Assembly (NCBI GenBank): GCA_016207405.1
Contig: JACQPQ010000046.1
Coordinates: 1-33,312, forward strand
Source of the DNA: Gammaproteobacteria bacterium
Lineage (GTDB): Bacteria > Pseudomonadota > Gammaproteobacteria > JACQPQ01
DNA: 33,312 nt
Reading direction: 5' to 3'
Part shown: one piece after another, positions 1-31,366 of the stretch
How positions within the stretch are numbered: position 1 is the first letter of the stretch
Layout: each line of letters starts with the position of its first letter
Position numbers and translations under genes: made by a program
The notes under the pieces: generated by a model
What the model was told of the DNA's origin: nothing
Database searches by the model: none
Seen by the model: only the letters and a program-made list of their open reading frames with translations

Positions 1-691
1 CCCTAACCCCTAACCCCTTTCTTACTATTTGATACCCTGTTCTAAAAAAATATCCCAAAGGCAAACTCCAAACATGGACGAGTCGCGTAAATGGGAAGAT
101 GAGAAAAATCGTTAAACCCAAGAAAAGGTGCAATTTGAATATAAAATGTTGGTGAGTGATGAGATCGGCCGCATTCGGTTGAAAGGTAAGAATGTGCTGA
201 ACCCATGTAGCTAAAACGACCATATTCGCTCCATTCAGATGGTTTGCAGAAATAGGGATAGTCCATAGACCTAAGATAAGTTGGGTATATAAAATAAGTA
301 AGATCAGAATATCCGAAAAGTTGCTGTTAGCTCGGATCCGTTTGTCAAATAGACGCCTATAAACGAGAAGCGTCATCCCGATAAAACATAAGATCCCAAA
401 AATTCCGCCGGCTATCATAGACAGCAATTGCTTGGTGCTAGATAAAATAAAATGATGGTACATTTTTTCGGGCGTTAGAAGACCAAACAAGTGCCCAAAG
501 AAAAGTAAAATAATGCCAATGTGAAAGAGGTTGCTTCCGAGTTGCATGTGCTTGTTTCTCAAAAGCTGACTGGAACTGGATGTCCATCCATATTGGGCGT
601 ATTCAAATCGTGCAATGCTGCCGATAAAAAAAACAGCGAGCGCGAGGTGAGGGTAATAACCAAAGAGGAGTTGGTGGATAGTGTTTGCCAT
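1..691 (-). CDS. narI: NarI, respiratory nitrate reductase gamma subunit (cytochrome b), 3' end off the window
   Basis: Membrane subunit of NarGHI: it oxidises quinol with two b-type hemes and passes electrons to NarH. The frame is open from the ATG at 691 to the left edge (230 codons, no stop). The E. coli protein is about 225 residues, so the stop should lie just outside. Five hydrophobic segments are visible. All four heme-ligand histidines are present: His57 (LFHIG), His67 (FFGHLFG), and the later histidines in KLHLFLG and RLVHVWS. The start has a GGAG 11 bases upstream and follows narJ by 31 bp. The last visible codons are G-rich (GGGGTTAGGGGTTAGGG on the coding strand), so the C-terminus runs into the heptad repeat seen elsewhere in the window. 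Identification is secure; the true end is unknown. Confidence 0.95.
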   Translation of the reverse strand, partial: MANTIHQLLFGYYPHLALAVFFIGSIARFEYAQYGWTSSSSQLLRNKHMQLGSNLFHIGIILLFFGHLFGLLTPEKMYHHFILSSTKQLLSMIAGGIFGILCFIGMTLLVYRRLFDKRIRANSNFSDILILLILYTQLILGLWTIPISANHLNGANMVVLATWVQHILTFQPNAADLITHQHFIFKLHLFLGLTIFLIFPFTRLVHVWSLPLGYFFRTGYQIVRKGLGVR

Positions 692-711: not shown

Positions 712-732
712 GCCGGACACGCTTACGCCGGC
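712..732. repeat. REP-like hairpin across the narJ stop codon
   Basis: GCCGG (712-716) pairs with CCGGC (728-732) around an 11-base loop. Read on the minus strand the sequence TAGGCCGGCGTAAGCGTG resembles the enterobacterial REP consensus. The narJ TAA (723-725) lies in the loop, so the last codons of narJ are supplied by the repeat. It could act as an mRNA-stabilising or attenuating hairpin between narJ and narI. Confidence 0.6.
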
Positions 733-1259
733 CTACAGGATGGTTTTACCATGATTTTTGGAGAAGATATTAATAAAGCATCAAAAACGACATGGTAGCC
801 AATTTTCTTTTGTTTAAGCCGTTCGCCAATGGCGGAAATAATCGGCTGGGCTTCTTTCAGTAAATCACGGGCCTCGTGGGGAGATTGGTGCGATAAAAAT
901 TCAAGAAAAGCAGGAAGATAGTCCGGTAACTCTCCATTTTTTAAGGAAATTCCTTTTTTTTGGTACACGGTTAAAAGATCGACCATAGCCTGGCCCCGAG
1001 AGCGAGATTCACCATGCACATGTTCGAAAAGATGCAAGGATAAGGAGGGGGTTCTATCAAACCATTCCACATAGTGTTCTTGTAAACGGAATAAGTTTTC
1101 GGTTTTTAAATGCTCACAAAAAGAGCGTAAGGATTGTTGATGCAAAGGGCAGAGAAGCCCTTCGTTTTCCATGATAGTTTGAAACTCTTCAAGGTTTTCT
1201 ATCCAAGCACTTTCAGGGTATGTCAGTAAAATCCCAAGTACTTTATACGTCTTGTACAT
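723..1259 (-). CDS. narJ: NarJ, nitrate reductase maturation chaperone
   Basis: Cytoplasmic TorD/NarJ-family chaperone that binds apo-NarG and allows insertion of the molybdenum cofactor and FS0 cluster before membrane attachment. At 178 aa it is shorter than E. coli NarJ (about 236), chiefly at the C-terminus. The family core is visible: YKVLGILLTYP at the N-terminus, FDRTPSLSLHLFEHVHGESRSRGQAMVDLL near residues 68-97 (the most conserved NarJ segment) and LPDYLPAFLEFLS. The ATG at 1259 is 3 bp after the narH stop, indicating translational coupling. The final residues (about KPSCRPA) are encoded by a REP-like palindrome, so the C-terminus may have been replaced by repeat insertion. Confidence 0.93.
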   Translation of the reverse strand: MYKTYKVLGILLTYPESAWIENLEEFQTIMENEGLLCPLHQQSLRSFCEHLKTENLFRLQEHYVEWFDRTPSLSLHLFEHVHGESRSRGQAMVDLLTVYQKKGISLKNGELPDYLPAFLEFLSHQSPHEARDLLKEAQPIISAIGERLKQKKIGYHVVFDALLISSPKIMVKPSCRPA

Positions 1260-1262
1260 GGA

Positions 1263-2762
1263 TTAAGTCCCACCGAATAAGTTTTTTCCATGGGGTGAAG
1301 AACCATCCCTTACAGAGGATCCTGAAAAATTAAATCCACACCCTGAGCGCATTCCAAAAGCATTTTCGGCATATTCTTTATGGGAGGTTGGGATTACAAA
1401 ACGGTCTTCGTGGTTGGCAATGGCTAAATAACGATACATAGCATTGACCTCTGTACGGTCAAGCCCAACGGATTTCAAAATGTTGTTGTCCTCCTCGTGA
1501 GTGATTTCCTTCATCCTCATATAAGCTCTCATAGCCAGCATTTTTTCAAGCGCTTCCACAACGGGTTTTTCTTCACCCGCAGTAAGGAGATTGGCGAGAT
1601 ATTGGACGGGAATACGTAAGGAACGGATGTCTGGAATAATGCCGTTTTTCGTCAGGAGACCGCTATTTTCTGCATTTTGAATGGGGCTCAAGGGAGGAAT
1701 ATACCAGACCATCGGAAGCGTTCTGTATTCAGGGTGTAGAGGAAAAGCGATTTTCCATTCCATGGCCATTTTATAAACAGGGGAGCGTTTTGCGGCTTCC
1801 AACCAATTGTGGGGGATCTGTTCTTTTTGAGCCTCTGCAATAACTTTTGGATCATTTGGATCAAGAAACAGGGAAAGCTGGGCTTCATATAAATCCTGTT
1901 CCTTTTCAACACATGCAACTTCTTTGATGCGGTCAGCGTCGTACAAGAGCACTCCAAGATATCGAATGCGTCCCACACAAGTTTCAGAACAAACGGTGGG
2001 TTCGCCAGCTTCGATGCGAGGATAACAAAAAGTACATTTTTCAGATTTTCCGGACTTCCAGTTGTAATATATTTTTTTATAAGGACAACCACTCACACAC
2101 ATCCGCCAACCGCGACATTTGTCTTGGTCAATCAAGACAATGCCATCTTCTTCTCGCTTATAGATGGCACCGGTTGGACAAGAGGCCACACACGTGGGGT
2201 TGAGGCAGTGTTCGCAGAGGCGAGGGAGGTACATCATGAAAGTGTTTTGGAACTCCCCATAAATTTTTTTCTGGATCCCTTCAAAGTTGAGATCTTTACT
2301 ACGGCGCTCAAATTCTGTACCCAGAATTTCTTCCCAATTAGGCCCTTTTTTTATTTTGTCCATTTTTAAGCCCGTTATAATGGAAACGGGCACGGCTGTC
2401 GGTGGGGTTTTGGATTCTGGGGCGTTATGTAAGTGCTGATAATCGTAAGTGAAGGGTTCGTAGTAATCGTCTATTTGAGGAAGGTGAGGGTTTGCAAATA
2501 TCCTAGAAAATAATTTTAATTTCCCACCCGCTTTGGGCTTGCAATTTCCGTCATGTGTTCGGCTCCATCCGCCTTTCCAACGTTCTTGATTTTCCCATTC
2601 ATCGGGATATCCAATGCCCGGTTTAGTTTCGACATTGTTAAACCAAGCGTATTCAACGCCTTCGCGAGAAGTCCAGGTATTTTTGCAAGTAATCGAACAG
2701 GTATGGCAACCAATGCATTTATCCAGGTTCAATACTTTGCCAATTTGCGCTCGAATTTTCAT
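1263..2762 (-). CDS. narH: NarH, respiratory nitrate reductase beta subunit
   Basis: Iron-sulfur subunit that carries electrons from NarI heme to NarG, on the cytoplasmic face of the membrane. 499 aa, close to the E. coli length (512), and alignable throughout. The first ferredoxin motif is CIGCHTCSITC (Cys16, 19, 22, 26). Further motifs are LCEHCLNPTCVASCP, CRGWRMCVSGCP and KCTFC. The Trp in CRGWRMC replaces a cysteine, as in E. coli NarH, and specifies the [3Fe-4S] centre. VETKPGIGYP, MYLPRLCEHC and LLTAGEEKPV are NarH-specific blocks. The ATG at 2762 has AAGGG 9 bases upstream. A 67 bp gap containing a palindromic repeat separates it from narG. Confidence 0.97.
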   Translation of the reverse strand: MKIRAQIGKVLNLDKCIGCHTCSITCKNTWTSREGVEYAWFNNVETKPGIGYPDEWENQERWKGGWSRTHDGNCKPKAGGKLKLFSRIFANPHLPQIDDYYEPFTYDYQHLHNAPESKTPPTAVPVSIITGLKMDKIKKGPNWEEILGTEFERRSKDLNFEGIQKKIYGEFQNTFMMYLPRLCEHCLNPTCVASCPTGAIYKREEDGIVLIDQDKCRGWRMCVSGCPYKKIYYNWKSGKSEKCTFCYPRIEAGEPTVCSETCVGRIRYLGVLLYDADRIKEVACVEKEQDLYEAQLSLFLDPNDPKVIAEAQKEQIPHNWLEAAKRSPVYKMAMEWKIAFPLHPEYRTLPMVWYIPPLSPIQNAENSGLLTKNGIIPDIRSLRIPVQYLANLLTAGEEKPVVEALEKMLAMRAYMRMKEITHEEDNNILKSVGLDRTEVNAMYRYLAIANHEDRFVIPTSHKEYAENAFGMRSGCGFNFSGSSVRDGSSPHGKNLFGGT

Positions 2763-2824: not shown

Positions 2825-2846
2825 CAATCCTAAATCCTAAATCTTA
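2825..2846. repeat. Heptad repeat at the narG stop
   Basis: Plus strand reads AATCCTAAATCCTAAATCTTA, i.e. (GGATTTA)n on the coding strand. The narG TAG (2830-2832) and its last five or six codons are inside it. Because the unit is seven bases, a TAG appears in every frame within three units. Confidence 0.75.
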
Positions 2847-5800
2847 ACTTCCTAACAATCACAAATTCATCACGATTAGAGCCCACCGTTCCATAGTAGT
2901 TAAACCCATACGATAGCTGGGCATAGCCACCTATCATATGTGTGGGTTTTGGGCAGGTGCGTGTCACGGAATTGTGAATGCCTCCTCGAAATCCTGTCTT
3001 TTCACTGATGGGGGTGTTGATAATTTTTTCCTGCGCATGGTACATCATCACCATGCCTTCTTTAACGCGCTGGCTGACGACGGCTCTTGCCGTAAGTGCA
3101 CCGTTGGCATTGTAGGCTTCTATCCAGTCATTATCTTTGATTCCGATTTTGGCCGCATCCGTTTCGCTGATCCAAACAATAGGCCCCCCACGAGACAAAG
3201 TCAGCATCAATAAATTGTCTGAATAGGTACTGTGGATACCCCATTTTTGATGTGGCGTAATAAAATTCAAAGCAATTTGAGGTCTCGCATCCTCTTTTTC
3301 CTGCAGAATGGGGTGTAGAGTTTTTGTATTGATAGGAGGCTTATAAACCACGAGCGACTCACCAAACGCTCTCATCCAAGGGTGATCTTGGTAGAGACTC
3401 TGGCGTCCTGTTAACGTTCTCCATGGAATGAGTTCGTGAACGTTGGTGTAACCTGCATTGTAGGTAATTTTTTCGGATTCTATTCCGCTCCAAATGGGTG
3501 AGCTAATAATTTTACGAGGTTGAGAGAGGAGATCTCGAAACCGAATTTTGTCTTCCTCCCTTCCTTTAGCTAAGTGAATATGCGAACGGCCGGTGGCTTG
3601 ACCTAAAGCTTCCCAGGCTTTGACGGCAACCTGTCCATTTGTTTCTGGTGCCAAAGTTAAAACCACTTCTGCGGCATCGATATCGGTTTCTATCTTAGGA
3701 AGGCCGCAGGTTGTGCCTGCCTCTTCGTGCGTGTGATTCAGGGCTTTAAGGAACGCGATTTCTTCTTCTCCTTTCCAGGCAAGCCCCTTTCCTCCATTTC
3801 CTAATGTGCTCATTAAAGGACCGAGAGCTGTAAATTTTTTATAGGTTTCTGGGTAGTTCCGTTCGACGACTTTAATGTCAGGCATGGTTTTCCCGGGAAC
3901 GGGGTCACATTCGCCTCGTGTCCAATCTTTTATATCGTGTGTTTGGCCGAGTTCTCTGGGTGAATCATGTAACAAGGGAAGCAAAACGATATCGGTTTCT
4001 TTACCGAGATGGCCATTCACACACTCAGAAAATTTCTTAGCCAACCCTTTGTAAATATCCCAGTCCGTTCGGCACTCCCAAACGGGATCAATGGCGGCCG
4101 ATAACGGGTGAATAAAGGGATGCATGTCGGAAGTGCTAAGGTCGTTTTTTTCATACCACGATGCGGTGGGTAAAACGATGTCGGAATACAGGCACGTCGT
4201 AGACATTCGAAAATCCAGTGTAACCAGCAAATCTAATTTGCCTTCGGGTTCTTCATTATGCCAGACGACTTCACTGGGCTTTTTGCCATTCGTTTGTCCT
4301 AAATCTTTGCCTTGCACCCCATGTTGAGTTCCGAGAAGATGCTTTAAAAAATATTCATGCCCCTTTCCACTAGAGCCGAGTAAATTGGAACGCCAGACAA
4401 ATAAGTTGCGAGGAAAATTTTTGGGATTGTCTGGATCTTCACAAGAAAACCGTAGTTTTTTAGATTTTAACTGTTGGATAACATAGGCTTCCGGCGTGAG
4501 GCCTTCTTTTTTAGCATCCAGGCTTAAGGTTAACGGGTTTCGTTCTAATTGAGGCGCAGAAGGAAGCCAGCCCATCCGTTCCGCTCGCACGTTGCAATCG
4601 ATGAGGGATAAATCTGTCCATAATTTTTTATCTGCTAAGGGAGATAAAATTTCATCGAGCTCCAGTTTTTCGTAGCGCCACTGATCGGTGTGAGCATAGA
4701 AGAAAGAAGTACTGTTCATTTGCCTGGGGGGTCTATTCCAGTCCAAGGCAAAAGCAAGGGGTAACCAACCACTTTGAGGGCGGAGCTTCTCTTGGCCGAC
4801 ATAATGAGCCCACCCGCCACCCGGCTGGCCCACACACCCACACATGACGAGCAAATTGATAATGCTCCGGTAGATCATATCCATGTGATACCAGTGGTTA
4901 AGTCCCGCACCCAAGATCACCATGCTGCGTCCTTCGGTTGCGTTGGCATTTTCGGCAAATTGTCTTGCGACGGTGATGACCGCATCACGAGGGACACCGG
5001 TAATCGCTTCTTGCCAGGCGGGCGTATAAGGAATGTTTTCATCATAAGTGCTTGCGACGTTTTCTTTCCCTAACCCTCTTTCAATGCCATAGTTTCCAAC
5101 CAAACAATCAAATACGGTAGCAACCGCAGTTTCTCCCTCTTTTAGCTTCAGTGTTTTAATCGGGATGGTTCGTACCAAGATGTCTTTATGATCTGTGCTA
5201 TTAAAATAATCATGTTTTTGGTTGCCGAAGTAAGGAAAGGCAACCGAAGCCACTTCACCTTCGTCTATGAGCGTGAGTTTGGGGGCTATTGTTTCTCCGG
5301 TTAGAATGTCCTTTTTCTCAAGGTTCCATTTGCCCTTTTCTCCCCAGCGCGAGCCAATGGAACCATTGGGGACTTTCACTTCTTTTGTGGTGAGATCTAT
5401 AACGACAGTTTTCCATGCAGGATTATTTTGAATGCCGAGGTTATTAGGGAAATCTGAAGCGCGAACAAGCCGCTCCGGTACATAAAACCCTTCTTCTTTT
5501 TTACTTAAGCGAACCAAAAAGGGCATGTCGGTATAGGTTTCAGCATACGTTTTAAAATAATGACTTTGTGTTTTTGGAGTTAAGTAAAATTCCTTCAAAA
5601 TAACGTGCCCCATGGCCAAGGCAAGGGCTGCATCAGTGCCTTGTTTGGGAGAGAGCCAGAGATCTGCAAATTTAGAGGCTTCGCTATAGTCTGGAGTAAT
5701 GACCACACTTTTAGCGCCTTTGTACCTGACTTCAGAATAAAAATGTGCGTCGGGTGTTCGGGTTTGAGGGACGTTAGAACCCCACAGAATTAAAAACATG

Positions 5801-6540
5801 CTGTTATACCAGTCTGCGCTCTCCGGTACATCGGTTTGTTCCCCCCAGGTTTGAGGAGAGCTAGGGGGGAGATCGCAGTACCAGTCATAAAAACTCATAC
5901 ACGTTCCGCCGATTAAAGAGAGGTATCGTGTGCCTGCGGCATAAGAAACCATAGACATCGCTGGAATAGGAGAGAAGCCCACTACTCGGTCAGGGCCAAA
6001 TGTTTTAATAGTGTAAATATTGGCAGAAGCAATTATTTCGTTGATTTCATCCCAGGTGGAACGCACAAAGCCGCCTTGTCCTCGAACGGATTGGTAACTT
6101 TTTGATTTTTGAGGATCGGTCACAATAGAAGCCCAGGCTTCCACAGGATCAGAAAAGTGTTGTTTAGCTTCTCGCCATAATTGAACCAGACGGCTACGGA
6201 TAAGAGGGTATTTCAGTCGATTGGCACTATAAATATACCAGGAATAACTTGCGCCCCTTCCACATCCGCGTGGCTCGTGATTAGGCATGTCGGGGCGCGT
6301 ACGGGGGTAATCGGTTGCTTGGGTCTCCCAGGTGATGAGTCCATTTTTGACGTAGATTTTCCAGCTGCAAGAGCCGGTGCAATTGACGCCATGCGTTGAG
6401 CGGACGATTTTGTCATGTTGCCAGCGTTGCCGATAGGAATTTTCCCATTGTCTCGATTCATCAGAGACAATGCCATGTCCTTCTGAGAAGGTTTCTGGGG
6501 TTTTGATAAAGAAGCTGAATCGTTCCAATACTTTGCTCAT
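2830..6540 (-). CDS. narG: NarG, respiratory nitrate reductase catalytic alpha subunit
   Basis: Molybdopterin guanine dinucleotide enzyme reducing nitrate to nitrite at the cytoplasmic face. 1236 aa against about 1247 in E. coli. FS0 ligands are in the classical positions: His50, Cys54, Cys58 and Cys93 (HGVNCTGSC and RGCGRG). The Mo-ligand aspartate is Asp223 in SFYDWYCDLPP. WGEQTDVPESADWYNS and ILWGSNVPQTRTPDAH follow in the cofactor-binding region. The C-terminal molybdopterin-binding block is recognisable (GFRGGIHNSVTRTCPKPTHMIGGYAQ in outline). The protein ends VRKLRFRI, encoded in a heptad repeat, and lacks the short acidic tail of the E. coli protein. The ATG at 6540 has no good Shine-Dalgarno sequence; the 93 bp upstream to narK is almost all repeat. 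Confidence 0.98.
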   Translation of the reverse strand: MSKVLERFSFFIKTPETFSEGHGIVSDESRQWENSYRQRWQHDKIVRSTHGVNCTGSCSWKIYVKNGLITWETQATDYPRTRPDMPNHEPRGCGRGASYSWYIYSANRLKYPLIRSRLVQLWREAKQHFSDPVEAWASIVTDPQKSKSYQSVRGQGGFVRSTWDEINEIIASANIYTIKTFGPDRVVGFSPIPAMSMVSYAAGTRYLSLIGGTCMSFYDWYCDLPPSSPQTWGEQTDVPESADWYNSMFLILWGSNVPQTRTPDAHFYSEVRYKGAKSVVITPDYSEASKFADLWLSPKQGTDAALALAMGHVILKEFYLTPKTQSHYFKTYAETYTDMPFLVRLSKKEEGFYVPERLVRASDFPNNLGIQNNPAWKTVVIDLTTKEVKVPNGSIGSRWGEKGKWNLEKKDILTGETIAPKLTLIDEGEVASVAFPYFGNQKHDYFNSTDHKDILVRTIPIKTLKLKEGETAVATVFDCLVGNYGIERGLGKENVASTYDENIPYTPAWQEAITGVPRDAVITVARQFAENANATEGRSMVILGAGLNHWYHMDMIYRSIINLLVMCGCVGQPGGGWAHYVGQEKLRPQSGWLPLAFALDWNRPPRQMNSTSFFYAHTDQWRYEKLELDEILSPLADKKLWTDLSLIDCNVRAERMGWLPSAPQLERNPLTLSLDAKKEGLTPEAYVIQQLKSKKLRFSCEDPDNPKNFPRNLFVWRSNLLGSSGKGHEYFLKHLLGTQHGVQGKDLGQTNGKKPSEVVWHNEEPEGKLDLLVTLDFRMSTTCLYSDIVLPTASWYEKNDLSTSDMHPFIHPLSAAIDPVWECRTDWDIYKGLAKKFSECVNGHLGKETDIVLLPLLHDSPRELGQTHDIKDWTRGECDPVPGKTMPDIKVVERNYPETYKKFTALGPLMSTLGNGGKGLAWKGEEEIAFLKALNHTHEEAGTTCGLPKIETDIDAAEVVLTLAPETNGQVAVKAWEALGQATGRSHIHLAKGREEDKIRFRDLLSQPRKIISSPIWSGIESEKITYNAGYTNVHELIPWRTLTGRQSLYQDHPWMRAFGESLVVYKPPINTKTLHPILQEKEDARPQIALNFITPHQKWGIHSTYSDNLLMLTLSRGGPIVWISETDAAKIGIKDNDWIEAYNANGALTARAVVSQRVKEGMVMMYHAQEKIINTPISEKTGFRGGIHNSVTRTCPKPTHMIGGYAQLSYGFNYYGTVGSNRDEFVIVRKLRFRI

Positions 6541-6633: not shown

Positions 6634-8316
6634 TTATGGATTTTTGACATAGGCGTTAGGTCTTAAATAAAACCATCCGTTAATCATGACGCAAACAGCG
6701 TAAAATATGGCAAATCCATACAGCGCATACTCAGGGGTCCCTCCTTTTATTTGTTCGCCAAATATTTGAGGGATAAGAAATGCACCATACGCAGCAACAG
6801 CCGATGTCCATCCCAGCACAGGGCCTGCCAGCTCTTTATTAAAAACGACTGCGATGGTTCTGAAGGTTGAACCGTTTCCAATGCCAGCAGCCGTAAATAA
6901 TATAAGGAATAATAAAAAGAAAGGAAGAAAATATTCTTCTGGGCTTGCTGAATGATAAGCGGCATCCATGGTGTAAGCAGCGCCCAGTGCGCCCAACACC
7001 ATGATGATCGAAATGATTTGAGTCACCCAGGCACCGCCAACTTTATCCGCTATCCATCCCCCCACCGGTCGAACGAGTGCTCCTAAGAAAGGGCCTATCC
7101 AGGCATACATTAAAGCAGAAGGGCCTAGAGGATTGGCCGTATGTTGCCAGACTCCGTTACTATCCAAGGTATGTGAAAATCCAAAAATGATTTGAATGGA
7201 AAGTGGAAGTGCGGCGGAATAACCAATAAATGAACCGAAGGTCATGGTGTAAATAATCGTCATGGCCCAGGTGTGTTTATTGCCAAAAATTTTATACTGG
7301 CGAGATAAATTCGTTTTGATTTCCCCAGGCAATAATTTGAGTAAAAAGAGTGTCGCAAAAATAACGAGGGGGAGCACTATCCACTTACTCAGCATCCATC
7401 CCGCGCCTCCCGTTTGTTCAGGCATGATAAGCCATAGTCCAACACTCGCTGTGAAGAATCCAATCAACAGCATACCGGATATTTTCGTGAAACTCGCGAG
7501 AGGGGAACCTATGCGGGGTGAGACGTGCTCGGTTCGTATCGTATGCATTCCAAACCAGCCTGCGAAGGCAAGTGGTATGAGGAATAACACCCATACAAAT
7601 CCTGCATTTTGGATATAAGAAGCCATGCCTGCAGGAACTTTTCCTAAAAGGCTTCCGCTTGCGCTTTGGAGAAGTGTAGGCTCTCCTCCTAATGTTCCCA
7701 GTAGTCCAAAGGTCATGACGAGTGGGATGAGGATTTGCATGGTGGTCACCCCAAAATTTCCCAATCCGGCATTTAACCCTAAAAATAAACCTTGGGTTCG
7801 TTTGGGGAAGAAGAAGCTAATGTTCGACATGGAAGAGGCGAAGTTTCCTCCTCCTATACCCGATAATAGGGCCAATAACTGAAAGATCCACAGCGATGTA
7901 TTTTTATCGAGAAGAGCGACTCCAGTTCCAAAGGCTGGGATGAGGAGGAGTGCCGTTGTGAAAAAGATGGTATTACGTCCCCCTGCAATACGGATAAAGA
8001 ATGTACTGGGTATTCGTAAGGTGGCGCCAGAGAAACCTGCAATAGCGGTTAAAGTGAAGAGCTCAGATTCCGTAAATGGAAATCCCGCATTCAGCATTTG
8101 GACGGTGATAATGCTCCAAGACAGCCATACTGCGAATCCACAGAGGAGACTGGGAATGGAGATCCACAAATTACGATAGGCTATTTTTTTCCCTGTGCTT
8201 AAGATCGTTTTCTTTCTACTGCTTTCCAAGGATCGGGTACTTTCAATGTCCCAGTGGGACACACCGCTTTCCCAGAATTGAGCATTTTCAATGTCCCAGT
8301 GATGTAGGTCGGTCAT
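6634..8316 (-). CDS. narK: NarK-type nitrate/nitrite transporter (MFS, NNP family)
   Basis: Inner-membrane carrier for nitrate uptake and nitrite export, serving NarGHI. The NNP signature GLNAGLGNFG is at 180-189 and NISFFFPKRTQG precedes it. Substrate-binding arginines are Arg101 (GATLRIPSTF) and Arg416 (GALVRPVGGW). A second glycine-rich signature, TAAGIGNGSTFR, lies late in the protein. At 560 aa it is about 100 longer than E. coli NarK. There are two extra hydrophobic segments between TM6 and TM7 (about 280-330), so perhaps 14 membrane passes, and an N-terminal 15-residue duplication (HWDIE at 6 and 21). The ATG at 8316 has a very strong AGGAGGAAAT upstream. First gene of the nar operon, behind an Fnr-type promoter. 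Confidence 0.95.
   Translation of the reverse strand: MTDLHHWDIENAQFWESGVSHWDIESTRSLESSRKKTILSTGKKIAYRNLWISIPSLLCGFAVWLSWSIITVQMLNAGFPFTESELFTLTAIAGFSGATLRIPSTFFIRIAGGRNTIFFTTALLLIPAFGTGVALLDKNTSLWIFQLLALLSGIGGGNFASSMSNISFFFPKRTQGLFLGLNAGLGNFGVTTMQILIPLVMTFGLLGTLGGEPTLLQSASGSLLGKVPAGMASYIQNAGFVWVLFLIPLAFAGWFGMHTIRTEHVSPRIGSPLASFTKISGMLLIGFFTASVGLWLIMPEQTGGAGWMLSKWIVLPLVIFATLFLLKLLPGEIKTNLSRQYKIFGNKHTWAMTIIYTMTFGSFIGYSAALPLSIQIIFGFSHTLDSNGVWQHTANPLGPSALMYAWIGPFLGALVRPVGGWIADKVGGAWVTQIISIIMVLGALGAAYTMDAAYHSASPEEYFLPFFLLFLILFTAAGIGNGSTFRTIAVVFNKELAGPVLGWTSAVAAYGAFLIPQIFGEQIKGGTPEYALYGFAIFYAVCVMINGWFYLRPNAYVKNP
8241..8301 (-). repeat. 45 bp-period in-frame direct repeat in the 5' end of narK
   Basis: TTTCAATGTCCCAGTG occurs exactly at 8241-8256 and 8286-8301, offset 45 bp (15 codons), giving HWDIE twice in the cytosolic N-terminus of NarK. 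It looks like a short tandem duplication that has since diverged between the exact ends. Confidence 0.85.
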
Positions 8317-8320
8317 TGGT

Positions 8321-8330
8321 ATTTCCTCCT
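8321..8330 (-). promoter_or_regulatory. Strong Shine-Dalgarno of narK
   Basis: Minus-strand AGGAGGAAAT ends 4 bases before the narK ATG. It is one of the best ribosome-binding sites in the window and fixes the start at 8316. Confidence 0.8.
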
Positions 8331-8354: not shown

Positions 8355-8403
8355 TGGAATAATCTTAAGCCAGTCGTAAACATAATGTTTTGATCTAGAT
8401 CAA
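8355..8403 (-). promoter_or_regulatory. Predicted class II Fnr/Anr-dependent narK promoter
   Basis: TTGATCTAGATCAA at 8390-8403 is a perfect palindromic match to the Fnr/Anr consensus TTGAT-N4-ATCAA. On the minus strand a -10-like TAAGAT lies at 8367-8362, which would place transcription start near 8355. The Fnr box is then centred at -41.5, the standard class II activation position. The site lies between the regulator gene stop (8421) and narK (8316). The -10 match and start site are inferred; the box is seen directly. Confidence 0.8.
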
Positions 8404-8420
8404 TTTTCGAACTTTATACA

Positions 8421-9140
8421 TTACCTTCCCGTTAAGCATCGTGCGAGTTCTCTCAAGCGTTCGGGCGCTATGATTGCAAGCTGACGGTTTTTTATTTTTA
8501 GGATGCCTTTTTTTTGAAGGTTTGTGAGAAGTCGGCTGACGGTTTCGATGGCCATTCCCAAATGATTGGCGATGTCACGCCGGTCCATAGAGAGCACAAA
8601 GTGAGAACCCGAATCACCGCGGCCTTTAGAGTGATGAGATAAGTAAAGTAAAAATCCAGCGAGCCGTTCTTCTGCTCCGTAGTTGCCCAGATAGAATGGG
8701 TGATCTGAAATTTTACGACTCAAGATCTGAATGAGTCGTCTTTGCAAGGTTGGGATTTCCGTGGAGAGCGAAAAAACCTGTTCGAATGAAACCGCGCAGA
8801 TATGGGTTGTCTCTAGGGCCATGGCATTATGAGGATAAATGCCTGAATGGATAGCATTTATCCCTAAAATTTCACCCGGAAAATGAAACCCAATCACTTT
8901 TTCACGTCCTTCGATATCGGTGAGATAAGATTTTAGGCTTCCTGAGCAAATCGTAAAAAGGATGTGAAATTTATCTTCTTTTCGGAATAAATGCTCTTTG
9001 GGCTGAAGGATGTGCAGTTTACCTACTGCAGTCGTTTCAGGCGCTGTACGGTTGTCGTGGGGAAGTGTCTTAGATAAGTAGACAGGGTGCAATAAACACT
9101 GTTTACAAAAAGTGTGAGGGAGTTTTGGCTTTTCGGACAT
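8421..9140 (-). CDS. Fnr/Anr-family (Crp superfamily) regulator with an altered cluster motif
   Basis: Likely oxygen- or redox-responsive activator of the adjacent nar operon. 239 aa: N-terminal cysteine region, cyclic-nucleotide-type beta barrel (about 40-120), dimerisation helix and C-terminal winged helix. The recognition helix IANHLGMAIETVSRLLTNLQ keeps the Glu-x-x-Ser-Arg residues that read TTGAT half sites in Fnr. Aligned with Anr (C-K-D-C-x5-C), this protein has Cys12 and Cys15 but Tyr21 (codon TAC) where the third cluster cysteine belongs. The internal cysteine is kept (Cys115 in HICAVSF), and there is an extra Cys65. Whether it still binds [4Fe-4S] is open. A Dnr-like role is possible but Cys12/Cys15 argue for Fnr/Anr ancestry. 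Confidence 0.9.
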   Translation of the reverse strand: MSEKPKLPHTFCKQCLLHPVYLSKTLPHDNRTAPETTAVGKLHILQPKEHLFRKEDKFHILFTICSGSLKSYLTDIEGREKVIGFHFPGEILGINAIHSGIYPHNAMALETTHICAVSFEQVFSLSTEIPTLQRRLIQILSRKISDHPFYLGNYGAEERLAGFLLYLSHHSKGRGDSGSHFVLSMDRRDIANHLGMAIETVSRLLTNLQKKGILKIKNRQLAIIAPERLRELARCLTGR

Positions 9141-9266
9141 TTTAACTTTTGGGTGACAGTTCCTTAATACTCTAATTGCAAGGATATCTGTTTTCTGATA
9201 GATTTTCGTCCCAAAGGATTTTTAAATAATGCATGGACTTGCTGATTATATATGGAGACAAGTCTC

Positions 9267-9638
9267 ATGAAAAAAATATCTTTAATGCTCAGTTGTTGTT
9301 TGGTAACCGGGTGTGCGTCTGTGCTTACGGGGACAGAAGACACCATCACGATAAATTCCCAAGAAAAAGATGCGACCATTTTGGTTGACCACCAGCCTAT
9401 TGGTAAAGAAGCGGTTTCTTGGCAAGTCAAGCGCGGAGAGCCTCACACCATTATGGCGCGAAAGGAAGGCTGTAAGGATGTGATCATTCAAACCGATCGT
9501 AAATTTAACCTGGTCAGTTTATTAGGTATTCCTATTGATTTAGGTCTTATTACGATTTCAGTCGATTTACTGACGGGAGCTGCGTGGAAGACTTCTCCTC
9601 GCGCGTACAGCGTGACCCCCGATTGTTCGCGGGTTTAA
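9267..9638 (+). CDS. Small PEGA-like lipoprotein
   Basis: Predicted 123-residue lipoprotein. The signal peptide is MKKISLMLSCCLVTG with lipobox Cys16 in LVTGCAS. The mature part has a PEGA-like beta segment (ATILVDHQPIGKEAVSWQVKRGEPHTI), then a hydrophobic segment VSLLGIPIDLGLITISVDLLTGA resembling the glycine-rich C-terminal hairpin of small proteobacterial lipoproteins with the same layout. The ATG at 9267 is preferred over 9252 because GGAGAC lies 9 bases upstream and it begins a proper signal peptide. It is divergent from the Fnr-like gene and 16 bp upstream of liuC, so may share that transcript. Function unknown. Confidence 0.8.
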   Translation: MKKISLMLSCCLVTGCASVLTGTEDTITINSQEKDATILVDHQPIGKEAVSWQVKRGEPHTIMARKEGCKDVIIQTDRKFNLVSLLGIPIDLGLITISVDLLTGAAWKTSPRAYSVTPDCSRV

Positions 9639-21114: not shown

Positions 21115-21154
21115 CCCCTAACCGTACCCCTTGCCCCTTATCCCTTACCCCTAT
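21115..21154 (-). repeat. G-rich heptad array containing the ubiV stop, G-quadruplex motif
   Basis: On the minus strand: GGGG-TAA-GGG-ATAA-GGGG-CAA-GGGG (21151 down to 21127), then TACGGTTAGGGG. The ubiV TAA is 21138-21140 and its last residues NRGKG are encoded here. A four-run quadruplex motif. Confidence 0.75.
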
Positions 21155-22040
21155 TCACATACCCCGCTTCCGACTTATAAAATCCATTTGAAAAAGATGC
21201 TTCAGGAAGCAAAGCTTGTAAACGTCGATACCCTTCTTCGCCTTCATATTTTTGGTCGAGCACATTACGGAAGACATGAGCGACTTCAACCATATGGGTG
21301 TGATGGGGGGATAAACGAAAATAGGAAACTCCAAGATTTTGCAGCTCGGTAAGTTCTCGTATCAAATTGCAATAAGTGTAAGAGAGCGTCTGCAGGCCAT
21401 TTACGACTAAGAAAGGTTGTTGGTTTAAGGTGAGTACCGCCATGCCATCGAGATCTTGGCCACAGATGAGTTGGCAATTGTGTTTGTGCAAACCATAGGC
21501 TCGAGCGTGTGCACACCGCGCTGAAATAGCGAGCGGCTGGCGCCCAAACACCTGAAGTTCCAAGTTGGCTCGATTCTGTGCTTGTGATAAAGCTGCGATG
21601 GAAGTTTGTGGTAACTCAAAAGGGAGTGTGACTCGAATAGCGCCTTGTTCTGTCAAGTAAAGGAGCGCTTCTTCATTGTAAACATTAATGTACGGTCCTA
21701 TGCAGTGTGGTTTCCCGAGTAGAAAGTGAATAGCTGCCATATCATTCGCTTCCACAAGACCGTTTGCCCAGGCTTGTACGCGGGTGCGTGAATTTTCTAG
21801 TTCTTTATCGCTTTCAATGAGGACAGAAGTGGAGTAGATGACTTCTTTTCCGGCTTGCTTTAAGCGTTCTGTCAGTTCCTGCAGAACGGGCTCTAAAAAT
21901 GGAGCACGTTTGGAACAGACGATTTCCCCAAGATAAACACACTCAATCGGAGCTTCATCTGCAATTTTAAAATAAAATTCTCTGATTTTTTTAATGTCCC
22001 AGTTAAAAAGGAGGGGACCTAAGGTAAGAAAAGACTTCAT
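21138..22040 (-). CDS. ubiV: UbiV, anaerobic ubiquinone biosynthesis, U32 peptidase family
   Basis: With UbiU it forms a heterodimer with [4Fe-4S] clusters needed for oxygen-independent ring hydroxylation in ubiquinone synthesis. 300 aa from the ATG at 22040. Cluster cysteines Cys42 (YLGEIVCSKR), Cys176, Cys189 and Cys193 (ARC...HNC-x3-C) keep the spacing of E. coli UbiV Cys39/180/193/197. Other blocks: GPYINVYNEEALLYL, NGLQTLSYTYCNL, FRLSPHHT. The start overlaps the ubiU stop (ATGA), so the two are coupled, as expected for equimolar partners. The C-terminus lies inside a G-rich heptad repeat. Confidence 0.93.
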   Translation of the reverse strand: MKSFLTLGPLLFNWDIKKIREFYFKIADEAPIECVYLGEIVCSKRAPFLEPVLQELTERLKQAGKEVIYSTSVLIESDKELENSRTRVQAWANGLVEANDMAAIHFLLGKPHCIGPYINVYNEEALLYLTEQGAIRVTLPFELPQTSIAALSQAQNRANLELQVFGRQPLAISARCAHARAYGLHKHNCQLICGQDLDGMAVLTLNQQPFLVVNGLQTLSYTYCNLIRELTELQNLGVSYFRLSPHHTHMVEVAHVFRNVLDQKYEGEEGYRRLQALLPEASFSNGFYKSEAGYVNRGKG

Positions 22041-23029
22041 CGCCAACCTCGTTCGTAAGAACCTACGGTTTCTGTTTGTCCTTCTGAAATCGTAGAAAGT
22101 TGTGTTGCTGGAATAAGAAGAGATCCTTCTGGGTTATCTAATGCCGCACGAAATGACCGGACGACTTCAGCGACATAGGCGCGTCCGCGTTGCCGACCCT
22201 CAATTTTAATCGCGCACACACCGGCTGCTTTTAATTTATCCAGAATAGAAATCGTGTTTAAACTTACGGGTTCTTCAAAAAGATAAAGGGGTTTTCCATT
22301 AGCAATAAAACGACCTTTACATAAGGTGGGGTATCCTGCTGACTCATGGCTTTCAAAAACGTTAATAGTGAACTCCCCTAACTTTGAAATAAGTTTCTCC
22401 CCCTGTTTTTCATAGTGTACATGAGAGGCCGGTGAACACACCCCAGAAGTATTGGGGGATTTGCCCGTTGCATACGAAGATAACGCGCATCGCCCTTCGG
22501 CCATCACACACAAGCCCCCAAAGGCAAAAACTTCCAATTCCGCATGCGTTTTGTGATAGATGTTTGCGATTTCAGAAACGGTGAGTACACGGGGAAGTAC
22601 CATGCGTTTAACATTGAAAGCCTTTTGATAAAAACGAATAGATTCCACATTAGAAGCGGAGGCTTGTACCGAAAGATGTTTACGCAAGTTGGGGTACGTG
22701 CGGTGACAGTAATGGAGAAGCCCGAGATCGGCCAGAATAACGGCGTCGACTTTAAGGCGTTCAGCATCGAAAAGTGCTTGATGCCATAGGTGGGACGCTC
22801 CTGCACGCGCAAAGGTATTAATGGCCACAAACACTTTGCACGACTTCGCATGCGCATAAGTGATGCCTTCGGCCAGTTCATCAGCACTGAAGTTGAGCCC
22901 GGGGAAATTGCGAGCGTTTGTTTCATTCCTAAAACCGACGTAAACGGCATCGGCACCGTGATCAACCGCATCTTTGAGGGCGGCGGGTGTTCCTGCGGGG
23001 CAAACGAGTTCTAAAGAGGGGGTATTCAT
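22037..23029 (-). CDS. ubiU: UbiU, anaerobic ubiquinone biosynthesis, U32 peptidase family
   Basis: Partner of UbiV in O2-independent ubiquinone hydroxylation. 330 aa from the ATG at 23029, one residue short of E. coli UbiU. Cluster cysteines are Cys174, Cys181, Cys198 and Cys237 (GGLCVMAEGRC, SGVCSPA, YPTLCKGRF), each exactly five positions after the E. coli ligands. Also LVCPAGTPAALKDAVDHGADAVY, NARNFPGLNF and KIEGRQRGRAYVAEVV. The frame is open to 23194, but that upstream part translates repeat DNA (a SAWEQE/PRSHALRGN-type product) and is not believed. No good ribosome site; 230 bp of repeats separates it from ubiT. Confidence 0.94.
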   Translation of the reverse strand: MNTPSLELVCPAGTPAALKDAVDHGADAVYVGFRNETNARNFPGLNFSADELAEGITYAHAKSCKVFVAINTFARAGASHLWHQALFDAERLKVDAVILADLGLLHYCHRTYPNLRKHLSVQASASNVESIRFYQKAFNVKRMVLPRVLTVSEIANIYHKTHAELEVFAFGGLCVMAEGRCALSSYATGKSPNTSGVCSPASHVHYEKQGEKLISKLGEFTINVFESHESAGYPTLCKGRFIANGKPLYLFEEPVSLNTISILDKLKAAGVCAIKIEGRQRGRAYVAEVVRSFRAALDNPEGSLLIPATQLSTISEGQTETVGSYERGWR

Positions 23030-23066
23030 TACAATTGCGGATTGAATAAAAAGTTTTATGTATTTT

Positions 23067-23149
23067 CTTGTTTCCGCGCTCTGCGTGGGGACACACATCC
23101 CCGGCGCTCCCGTGCTAAAACTGACGTTCCCACGCAGAGCGTGGGAACG
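23067..23149. repeat. REP-like hairpins upstream of ubiU
   Basis: CGTTCCCACGC (23125-23135) pairs with GCGTGGGAACG (23139-23149) around AGA. Just before it is a diverged copy (GTTTCCGCGC-TCT-GCGTGGGGAC, about 23070-23092), and GGGGA/TCCCC at about 23087-23102 can form a small hairpin. Same family as 21078-21112. Confidence 0.75.
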
Positions 23150-23162
23150 AGGAACGCAGAGC

Positions 23163-23199
23163 TTTTCTTGTTCCCACGCTCTGCGTGGGAACAAGAAAA
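23163..23199. repeat. Perfect 17 bp-stem REP-like hairpin between ubiT and ubiU
   Basis: TTTTCTTGTTCCCACGC (23163-23179) pairs with 23183-23199 around TCT. A/T tracts on both ends resemble a bidirectional terminator, yet it lies inside the presumed ubiT-ubiU-ubiV transcript. Confidence 0.75.
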
Positions 23200-23276
23200 T
23201 TTAGGATTAAGGATGAAGACACAGGCATCAACTTCATTTCAAATTCTAAATCCTAAATCCTAGCTCCTAACTCCTC
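23200..23276. repeat. Heptad repeats containing the ubiT stop
   Basis: TTTAGGATTAAGGAT at the left and ATTCTAAATCCTAAATCCTAGCTCCTAAC at 23244-23272. On the minus strand the ubiT TAG (23260-23262) is followed by GATTTAGGATTTAG, and the preceding codons (RGVRS) also read through repeat units. Confidence 0.7.
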
Positions 23277-23925
23277 GCTTAGTTTGCTTTTCGAGAGCGG
23301 TCATTCTTTCTGCAAGTTGGTCCGTTGAGTGTGAAAGTTTATCCAGCTCCTTATGTACCGGAGAAAGAACCGTGTTTTGTATACGCTTTAAATCCCCACT
23401 GAGTTGTAAGGAAACAAATTTGCCAAAATTGAATGTTTTTTTAAAGAGGGGTATGAGTATTTGTGGGGGATTGAAAACATCTTTAACCCAGTCTATTTTC
23501 ACGCCGTCTAGTGCATTTCGGAGGGCAACAATAAGCTCGGTATTTCCGTCAATAGATAAGTCTCTTGAAAAAAAGAGCGCATCTCCATCAAGTTTTCCTT
23601 GGAAGAGTTGCCAGAGGGAGTAGAGTTCGCTTCGAACCGTAGCGAATGGCTCCGAGGCAAGTGCTTCTGAACGATTGGGAATGATTCGAACTTTTAGCGA
23701 TTGCTCAATAGGTAAGAGGAGATAAAAGGGAAGATCTGAAAATTCAATTAAAAGAGTTTTTCCATGAAATTCGGAAAGCCTTTCTGCGATGCCGGGATGA
23801 TGGCGCTGTATTTTAAGTAAAGTGCGGTTAATAAGCGTTTGTAACAGAGCGTGGGCAAGGGGAAGTTTGGTCAGAACCGAAAAAAAAGGCGTGTACAAAA
23901 GAGAAGCGGTTGACTTGGAGTGCAT
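23260..23925 (-). CDS. ubiT: UbiT, SCP2-domain accessory factor of anaerobic ubiquinone biosynthesis
   Basis: Lipid-binding SCP2-family protein needed with UbiU-UbiV for ubiquinone synthesis without oxygen; thought to hold hydrophobic ubiquinone precursors. About 221 aa from the ATG at 23925; a TTG at 23961 would add 12 residues and neither start has a clear ribosome site. The SCP2 core is at about 70-150, with the typical LFQGKLDGDALFFSRDLSIDGNTELIVALRNALDGVKID segment (outline). A C-terminal extension (about 165-215) looks helical and possibly coiled-coil (SHSTDQLAERMTALEKQ). The C-terminal residues and stop are in a heptad repeat. Upstream hydrolase gene is on the same strand. Confidence 0.88.
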   Translation of the reverse strand: MHSKSTASLLYTPFFSVLTKLPLAHALLQTLINRTLLKIQRHHPGIAERLSEFHGKTLLIEFSDLPFYLLLPIEQSLKVRIIPNRSEALASEPFATVRSELYSLWQLFQGKLDGDALFFSRDLSIDGNTELIVALRNALDGVKIDWVKDVFNPPQILIPLFKKTFNFGKFVSLQLSGDLKRIQNTVLSPVHKELDKLSHSTDQLAERMTALEKQTKRGVRS

Positions 23926-23973
23926 GCGTGTAATGTACGATATATGCTGAATAGGTTTCAAGATTTTCTCTGG

Positions 23974-29678: not shown

Positions 29679-30728
29679 ATGACTCCTCAGACGATCACAC
29701 TCACCCAACCCGATGACTGGCATGTACATTTGCGGGATGGGGTGTGGCTTCCGCTGACCGTTCTCCACAGCGCGCGTTATTTTGGTCGGGCGCTCATTAT
29801 GCCCAACCTCGATCCTCCCTTGACTACCTTGCCGAAAGTTGCGGCTTACATGAAAAGAATTCTGGCCCATAAACCGAAAGGGGCACATTTTCAGCCGTTA
29901 ATGACGCTGTATTTGACCGAAGGAATGAAGCCAGATCTCATAAAAGAAGCTCGGATGAGAGGGGGGATTTATGGGGTCAAACTTTATCCCGCGTTCGCGA
30001 CGACACATTCAACAAAAGGAGTTGCAAATATTAAGGCTGTTTATTCTGTTTTGGAGACTATGCAAGAGGTCGGTCTTCCGCTTTTAGTGCATGGGGAACT
30101 TTCCGATTCCACTGTAGATGTGTTTGATAGAGAAGCTTGTTTTATCGAAAGAGTTTTTATTCCTCTTTTAAAGGACTTTCCAGAATTGAAGGTTGTCTTT
30201 GAACATATCAGCACAAAGGTAGCGGTAGATTTTGTAAAATCTGAAAGAGAACGTTTGAGGGCGACACTCACAGCGCATCATCTCCTGTATACACGGAGTG
30301 ACTGTTTGGCCCATGAATTCAATCCCCATCTTTATTGCGCACCCATCTTGAAAAGGGCTTCTGACCGGAGAGCGTTGATAGAAGCGGCAACGAGCGGAAA
30401 CCCAAAATTCTTTTTGGGGACAGATAGCGCGCCACATGCTAGGCGTCAAAAAGAGTCTGGATGTACAAAGCCTGGTATTTACACCGCTCACATCGCACTC
30501 GAGTTATATGCAGAAGTATTTGAGGCGGCAGGAAAACTCGAACGGCTCGAAGCATTTGCATCTTTTCACGGGGCTGATTTTTACGGCCTACCTCGAAACC
30601 GTCAGAAAATTATTTTATCTCAACAATCTTGGAAGGTGCCGCTCCAGTATAGGATCGGAAATGAAACGCTAGTCCCTTTGCGTGGGGGAACTTCTGTTAG
30701 GTGGAAATGTAGGATTTTATTTCAATAG
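29679..30728 (+). CDS. pyrC: PyrC dihydroorotase
   Basis: Third step of pyrimidine synthesis: cyclises carbamoyl aspartate to dihydroorotate with a binuclear zinc site. 349 aa, the E. coli class II length. Zinc-ligand block DWHVHLRDG (His15, His17), carbamylated lysine in GVKLYPAFATTHS, LPLLVHGE, FEHIST, and the catalytic Asp in FFLGTDSAPHARRQKE. The C-terminus is slightly different from E. coli and ends within 30 bp of brnT. A TATAAT at 29662-29667 is 11 bases before the ATG and there is no ribosome site, so transcription may start very near the start codon. No other pyr genes are close. Confidence 0.96.
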   Translation: MTPQTITLTQPDDWHVHLRDGVWLPLTVLHSARYFGRALIMPNLDPPLTTLPKVAAYMKRILAHKPKGAHFQPLMTLYLTEGMKPDLIKEARMRGGIYGVKLYPAFATTHSTKGVANIKAVYSVLETMQEVGLPLLVHGELSDSTVDVFDREACFIERVFIPLLKDFPELKVVFEHISTKVAVDFVKSERERLRATLTAHHLLYTRSDCLAHEFNPHLYCAPILKRASDRRALIEAATSGNPKFFLGTDSAPHARRQKESGCTKPGIYTAHIALELYAEVFEAAGKLERLEAFASFHGADFYGLPRNRQKIILSQQSWKVPLQYRIGNETLVPLRGGTSVRWKCRILFQ

Positions 30729-30756
30729 TTACCCCGCCTTGACGTATAATTTGTTT

Positions 30757-31026
30757 ATGTATGGATTTGAGTGGGATGAGCACAAAAGGATTGCAAATGT
30801 TGAGAAACATGGCATTGACTTTGTTGATGCAATCGAAGTATTTAATGATTTTGATAGGATTGAAGCGGAAATCGTTAGGAATGGCGAAAGACGCAATCAA
30901 GTCATTGGTCTTGTTAAAGATGTGATTATTTTTGTTGTCTACACTAAACGAAACGATAAGCAAAGAATTATTTCTGCGCGGAGAGCGAGCCGGTATGAAC
31001 GTGAAACATATTTCCAACCATCATAA
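30757..31026 (+). CDS. brnT: BrnT-family toxin (DUF497)
   Basis: Small ribonuclease toxin of a type II toxin-antitoxin pair. 89 aa from the ATG at 30757. The BrnT pattern is complete: FEWDEHKRIANVEKHGIDFVDAIEVFNDFD at the start, RNQVIGLVKDVIIFVVYTKRNDKQRIISARRASRYERETY at the end (outlined), including the catalytic-type Arg/His residues of the RelE-like fold. A TATAAT ends 6 bases before the ATG, so the message may be nearly leaderless. The 3' end overlaps the antitoxin gene by 32 bp, as expected for TA pairs. Confidence 0.88.
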   Translation: MYGFEWDEHKRIANVEKHGIDFVDAIEVFNDFDRIEAEIVRNGERRNQVIGLVKDVIIFVVYTKRNDKQRIISARRASRYERETYFQPS

Positions 31027-31366
31027 AATTACAAAGAGCCTAACGAATTGGGATAAAGTCCGAAAAATGACGGAAGCAAAAATTATTCACGCGGCTAGAT
31101 CGGACAGAGATGCACAGCCTTTATCTAAAAAACAGTTAAAGTATTTTAAACGCGTTAATCCCATACGTCAGGTAGAAATTAAATTAATCCGGCATAAATT
31201 GGGACTTTCTCAAGAAGAATTCGCACATTATTTTGGTGTAAGTCAGAGAACAATACAAGAATGGGAACAACACCGTAGGATCCCTACAGCAACAGCTCGA
31301 AACTTCTTAAAGGTTATAGAATCTGAACCCACAATAGTGCAGAAAATTCTTCGTTCAGGCACTTAA
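30995..31366 (+). CDS. BrnA-like antitoxin with XRE-type helix-turn-helix
   Basis: Presumed antitoxin and operon repressor for the overlapping BrnT. 123 aa. Residues about 20-55 (W-DKVRKMTEAKIIHAARSDRDAQPLSKKQL) resemble the toxin-binding part of BrnA-like proteins. Residues about 65-105 are a Cro/C1-type HTH: EIKLIRHKLGLSQEEFAHYFGVSQRTIQEWEQHRRIPT. Classical BrnA uses a ribbon-helix-helix instead, so this is the HTH variant. The ATG at 30995 lies in the end of brnT with GGAGAG about 8 bases upstream. Not recognised at the symbol level. Confidence 0.82.
   Translation: MNVKHISNHHKITKSLTNWDKVRKMTEAKIIHAARSDRDAQPLSKKQLKYFKRVNPIRQVEIKLIRHKLGLSQEEFAHYFGVSQRTIQEWEQHRRIPTATARNFLKVIESEPTIVQKILRSGT

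Follow-up and report, generated by a model that had tools for sequence, protein, structure and literature searches.

The window analysed here, a stretch of 33,312 nucleotides, is one whole contig of a 1.45-Mb, 94%-complete assembly in 73 contigs. It carries an fnr-like gene (8421..9140, minus strand) that encodes a protein of 239 residues from an ATG start at 9140, and a set of nitrate respiration genes located on the same strand. The first of these is a gene for a narK-type nitrate/nitrite transporter (6634..8316; TIGR00886, E=8.9e-79, below cut-off), followed by narG (2830..6540; TIGR01580, 2158 bits), narH (1263..2762; TIGR01660, 921 bits) and narJ (723..1259; TIGR00684, 121 bits), all three over the cut-offs of their respective models. 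The series closes at the contig end with a probable narI (2..691), an open-ended reading frame of 230 residues named by its position and membrane-protein character, not by a profile match. The narK-type protein is extended at its N-terminus by a segment that contains an imperfect repeat (HWDIENAQFWES / HWDIESTRSLES), and its transporter domain starts near residue 48. Divergent from fnr, a small lipoprotein-like open reading frame (9252-9638) returned no Pfam or NCBIfam match.

The initial annotation had placed a perfect Fnr box beside the fnr-like gene, and a palindromic instance, TTGATCTAGATCAA, was indeed located at 8390..8403 (centre 8396.5), with narK as the first gene downstream of it. 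The genome contains three perfect sites, of which this is the only one that precedes an expected FNR target; the other two, on contigs 29 and 42, have no obvious FNR target nearby and were judged to be chance occurrences. On the minus strand, a -10-like hexamer (TAAGAT, 8362..8367) matching four of six consensus bases has its first base 29.5 bp from the box centre, which corresponds to class II spacing, and a Shine-Dalgarno element for narK (AGGAGG) is found at 8325..8330. The geometry predicted from these elements is that of a class II promoter, with the box at -41.5 and a transcription start near 8355. The combination of a perfect FNR box and class-II-like spacing upstream of narK-narGHJI leads us to expect an active FNR activator. 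No FNR box was identified upstream of fnr itself when allowing up to two mismatches.

Several lines of evidence assign the protein to the FNR group. Matches to the Pfam HTH_Crp_2, cNMP_binding and Crp models all exceed their cut-offs, and the best NCBIfam model is that of Fnr (NF008365, E=5.5e-44), at a score of 150 bits that lies under the 228-bit cut-off of this model; a likewise divergent FNR from an uncultured Wenzhouxiangella metagenome-assembled genome (L042) scores 137 bits. The cNMP-type beta-roll, dimer helix and Crp HTH that define the CRP/FNR fold were recovered both by Pfam and in an AF2 model (pLDDT 82.9, with residues 1-10 and 25-37 at low confidence and the remaining N-terminus weak). 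The top PDB match of this model is Aliivibrio fischeri holo-FNR (E 1.9e-21), and the FNR structures of that species are the closest solved relatives in both sequence and fold. The recognition helix ETVSR, previously noted as intact, was found at residues 199-203, and its E199, T200, S202 and R203 are invariant in a 34-sequence alignment (A1). The locus hence combines a helix of the form E-T-[VI]-S-R with a box of the form TTGAT-N4-ATCAA before target genes. Regulators of the cluster-free FixK2/Dnr type have no N-terminal cysteine cluster, whereas the window protein retains Cys12 and Cys15, and its nearest models and structures are those of FNR, not of FixK or DNR. With the Gram-negative FNR proteins of E. 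coli and A. fischeri (5E44/9QLL) it shares the fold, the C-x2-C pair, the internal Cys122, the ETVSR-type helix, the FNR box and the class-II-like promoter. It differs from them in a Tyr for the third Cys, a Cys65 for the Arg72 equivalent and a segment between dimer helix and hinge that is shorter by three residues; this deletion is common to 20-odd other relatives and was discarded as a special feature.

FNR serves as the standard model for iron-sulphur sensors of oxygen. Its four fixed cysteines are treated as a signature, and both genome annotation and numerous models of the oxygen response depend on them. In E. coli numbering these residues are 20, 23, 29 and 122, and the window protein presents three of them. 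Cys12 and Cys15, the first two ligands in a C-x2-C arrangement (9096..9107, minus strand), are encoded by TGT codons at 9107-9105 and 9098-9096, and both columns hold Cys in all 182 FNR-like proteins surveyed. The fourth ligand is retained as Cys115 (TGC, 8796..8798, minus strand), equal to E. coli Cys122. At the third site, codon 21 (9078..9080, minus strand) is TAC, and the resulting Tyr aligns without gaps with E. coli C29 in the comparison with A. fischeri FNR and 181 relatives, as C-x2-C-x5-Y. An extra cysteine, here proposed as a substitute ligand, is encoded by codon 65 (TGC, 8946..8948, minus strand). The initial annotation was correct in every sequence detail it gave regarding these residues, and had left unlisted only the C-terminal Cys235, which completes the set of five (12, 15, 65, 115 and 235) and occurs also in six other proteins. 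A misaligned third ligand was discarded, given that no further Cys is found from residue 15 to 65, and so was an alternative start adding a cysteine: 27 codons are open upstream and include a TGT, but no ATG, GTG or TTG precedes 9140. The four-cysteine feature being incomplete, we class the protein as an FNR variant that, judging from its sequence, probably works like FNR.

To establish how unusual this arrangement is, 182 distinct FNR-like proteins were compiled from 369 genomes of the same class, from earlier sets and from the family of one relative; the nearest relatives compared come from other orders of the class and present about 40% identity. All four ligand cysteines are kept in 179 of the 182, the exceptions being the window protein, the Wenzhouxiangella protein and a paralogue (L190) from a genome (G366) with four FNR-like matches. 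Column 21 holds Cys in 180 proteins, Leu in L190 and Tyr in the window protein only, and column 115 holds Cys in 181. Column 65 is predominantly basic (Arg in 156, Lys in 13, His in five), with Gln in four, Thr and Phe in one each, and Cys in just two proteins, those of the window and of Wenzhouxiangella, each of them short of one ligand. A DNA pattern for Cys65 was matched in one of 369 genomes of the class and one of 399 of the phylum, in both cases by the window's own genome; the pattern catches most FNRs and misses those with different neighbouring residues, so that these counts are lower bounds. In the Wenzhouxiangella protein (4953-5738 of its own locus) the third Cys is kept and the change is a reciprocal exchange, Arg65 to Cys and Cys115 to Arg, whereas the other FNRs examined in its family are all canonical. 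L190 has Leu21 and lacks Cys65.

The probability that both Cys65 carriers should fall among the three ligand-deficient proteins is 1.8e-4 if carriers are scattered randomly; this figure comes from a post hoc test, chosen once the pattern was known. No other column of the 182-protein alignment shows a similar tie to ligand loss. The phylogenetic tree requires two separate gains of Cys65, on separate branches. Both branches are long, at 1.13 changes per site for the window protein and 1.07 for L042 where the median is 0.22; rapid evolution could thus account for the coincidence, as it could yield ligand loss and a new cysteine alike. Of the columns, 31 are conserved in 90% or more of the relatives; at these the window protein shows three departures (Y21, E55 and H170), which places it in the top 10% of a distribution with a median of one. 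Since three of the four ligands remain and such departures number only three, the protein is not obviously decaying. A pseudogene was ruled out on these departures and on the open frame, and the joint retention of Cys12, Cys15, Cys115, the ETVSR helix and the reading frame likewise argues against simple decay.

Residues 60-66 and 112-118 form strands in the AF2 model, and in the jelly-roll fold typical of cyclic-nucleotide domains the two run next to each other in antiparallel orientation. A mean-field coupling analysis of 180 sequences, from which the window protein and L042 had been left out, reached its maximum between these strands at i+j=180, the register that pairs column 65 with column 115. 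This signal is weak, at about two standard errors; in a neighbouring hairpin used as control, coupling peaks at the expected register of 135. Cys65 is hence a probable direct cross-strand neighbour of Cys115. The Arg/Cys swap that L042 shows at columns 65 and 115 is most easily explained if both side chains are neighbours. It is at the same time a different substitution from that of the window protein, since in L042 Cys65 replaces Cys115 and not Cys21. No paper on Arg72 of E. coli FNR or on the residues around it turned up in a literature search.

The genome was searched family by family with profiles, and no second, canonical Fnr was found: a single protein exceeds the HTH_Crp_2 cut-off, that of the window, which is the only CRP/FNR-type regulator identified. 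A weak match on contig 72 was rejected as a second FNR, as it falls below the cut-off and spans only 30 of 70 profile positions. The genome encodes an IscU-like scaffold and a single heme-copper oxidase (aa3 cytochrome c type). A second member of the heme-copper family was not found in the assembled part of the genome, which therefore holds no NorB-type NO reductase. Together with the nar genes and the ubi genes described next, these features make this a bacterium able to use oxygen as well as nitrate for respiration, and one to which an oxygen-responsive switch would be of advantage; the presence of the scaffold and the oxidase makes it plausible that a cluster can be built and that such a switch is useful. 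The window also encodes UbiV, UbiU and UbiT, which function in oxygen-independent ubiquinone synthesis, in a cluster at 21138-23961 (minus strand) with matches over NCBIfam cut-offs; a search allowing two mismatches or fewer found no FNR box directly before ubiT.

Characterized regulators provide several points of comparison. E. coli FNR uses four Cys ligands and, when Cys122 is removed, acquires little cluster in vivo (PMC4214427). The FNR of Acidithiobacillus ferrooxidans (AFE_0270) naturally has a Ser in place of the third Cys, contains about 4.5 Fe per monomer and drives the E. coli PnarG promoter to about 70% of the level attained by the E. coli protein, and its cluster is lost in air over 210 minutes, much more slowly than in E. 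coli FNR (PMC6659574). Like the window protein, it lacks the Cys29 equivalent while keeping those of 20, 23 and 122, and has a Leu at the Ser24 position (Leu16 in the window protein), where substitutions have been linked to a slower reaction with oxygen (PMC6659574); Leu occupies this position in two of the 182 proteins. The two differ in the residue at the third site (Ser versus Tyr) and in the spare cysteine, which in A. ferrooxidans is at 40, with its reach to the cluster doubted by the authors (PMC6659574), and in the window protein lies on the strand beside the Cys122 equivalent. Bacillus subtilis Fnr likewise departs from the standard ligands, with three Cys and Asp141 (PMC3520743), although its cluster is in the C-terminal domain, at a site that is not equivalent (PMC3520743, PMC12937710). 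The loss of one Cys is thus, on the evidence of these two proteins, by itself neither new nor disabling. What is new here is a Tyr at the third site together with a Cys beside Cys115, in a column that one other ligand-losing lineage, that of L042, also filled with Cys; L042 shares with the window protein this Cys and the loss of one canonical ligand, but keeps the third Cys and has lost Cys115.

On the available sequence evidence, the window protein is most likely a functional FNR whose ligand set has been rearranged, and in which Cys65 is favoured as the fourth ligand over Tyr or solvent, a cluster-free activator being less likely. We infer, tentatively but as a reading that may well prove right, that an oxygen-sensitive Fe-S cluster, most probably of the [4Fe-4S] type, is bound by Cys12, Cys15, Cys115 and Cys65, the last of these standing in for the lost third ligand from the strand next to Cys115, and that the protein switches narK-narGHJI. 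The cluster-loaded protein would dimerise and activate the operon from the class-II-like promoter upstream of narK, and oxygen would break the cluster and turn the operon down. The oxygen threshold probably differs from that of E. coli FNR and is likely to be higher. The proposal that the protein recruits Cys65, already raised in the initial annotation, gains independent support from L042, where an unrelated lineage combines Cys65 with the loss of another ligand, and from the weak 65/115 coupling. The accompanying suggestion of a less oxygen-labile protein finds a published precedent, by analogy, in A. ferrooxidans FNR, with the same ligand missing and the same neighbouring Leu, whereas constitutive action is disfavoured.

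An alternative that we consider somewhat unlikely is that a [4Fe-4S] cluster is held by Cys12, Cys15 and Cys115, with a non-cysteine ligand (the Tyr21 phenolate, His18, or water/hydroxide) on the fourth iron and Cys65 as an incidental feature. There is precedent for exactly this missing ligand in A. ferrooxidans FNR, for which Ser has been proposed as a ligand (PMC6659574), and the Bacillus protein provides another, as an FNR with three Cys and an Asp (PMC3520743). With Tyr, the third site would still offer an oxygen donor, and L190, which lacks both the third Cys and Cys65, indicates together with the Ser-bearing A. ferrooxidans protein that a replacement Cys is not required. This alternative nonetheless leaves Cys65 unexplained: the residue is absent from the canonical FNRs examined and present in two separately derived ligand-deficient proteins, in a column paired with Cys115.

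The cluster may instead have been lost altogether, leaving an activator that is constitutive or otherwise signalled, or that senses redox state through a Cys65-Cys115 dithiol/disulphide, as two cysteines placed side by side on neighbouring strands might become disulphide-linked. The absence of cluster build-up in vivo in E. coli FNR deprived of C122 (PMC4214427) is in line with this possibility, as is the existence of cluster-free relatives such as FixK2, which senses oxidation via a cysteine (PMC12937710). We nevertheless regard it as improbable, since Cys12 and Cys15 are retained despite being useless without a cluster, the remainder of the protein is well conserved and A. ferrooxidans FNR tolerates the loss of the third ligand. 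Much less probable still is that Tyr21 arose through an error of assembly, or reflects a minority strain variant, and that the population has Cys21. TAC and TGC differ by one base and the assembly comprises 73 contigs, but the surrounding frame is clean and a miscall would leave unexplained the independent Cys65, which none of the examined canonical FNRs has.

In this small genome of a nitrate-respiring bacterium, the one FNR that was found thus departs from the four-cysteine signature. A rearranged ligand set, as this suggests, could alter the oxygen level at which nitrate respiration is switched off. Should Cys65 be a cluster ligand, the placement of ligands would constitute an evolvable setting for the oxygen threshold, and 'broken' FNRs that are now dismissed would deserve re-examination. 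As a more speculative extension, which is possible if doubtful, column 65 may be a standing alternative ligand position, such that lineages losing a Cys shift the cluster to 12/15/65/115 or 12/15/21/65 and retune their respiratory oxygen threshold while keeping the switch. The Arg/Cys exchange of L042 merits study in its own right.

Elsewhere in the window, at 30682-31366, a BrnT-type ribonuclease toxin gene (PF04365) is followed by an overlapping gene for an HTH antitoxin, which is of the MqsA/NadS kind and not the usual BrnA.
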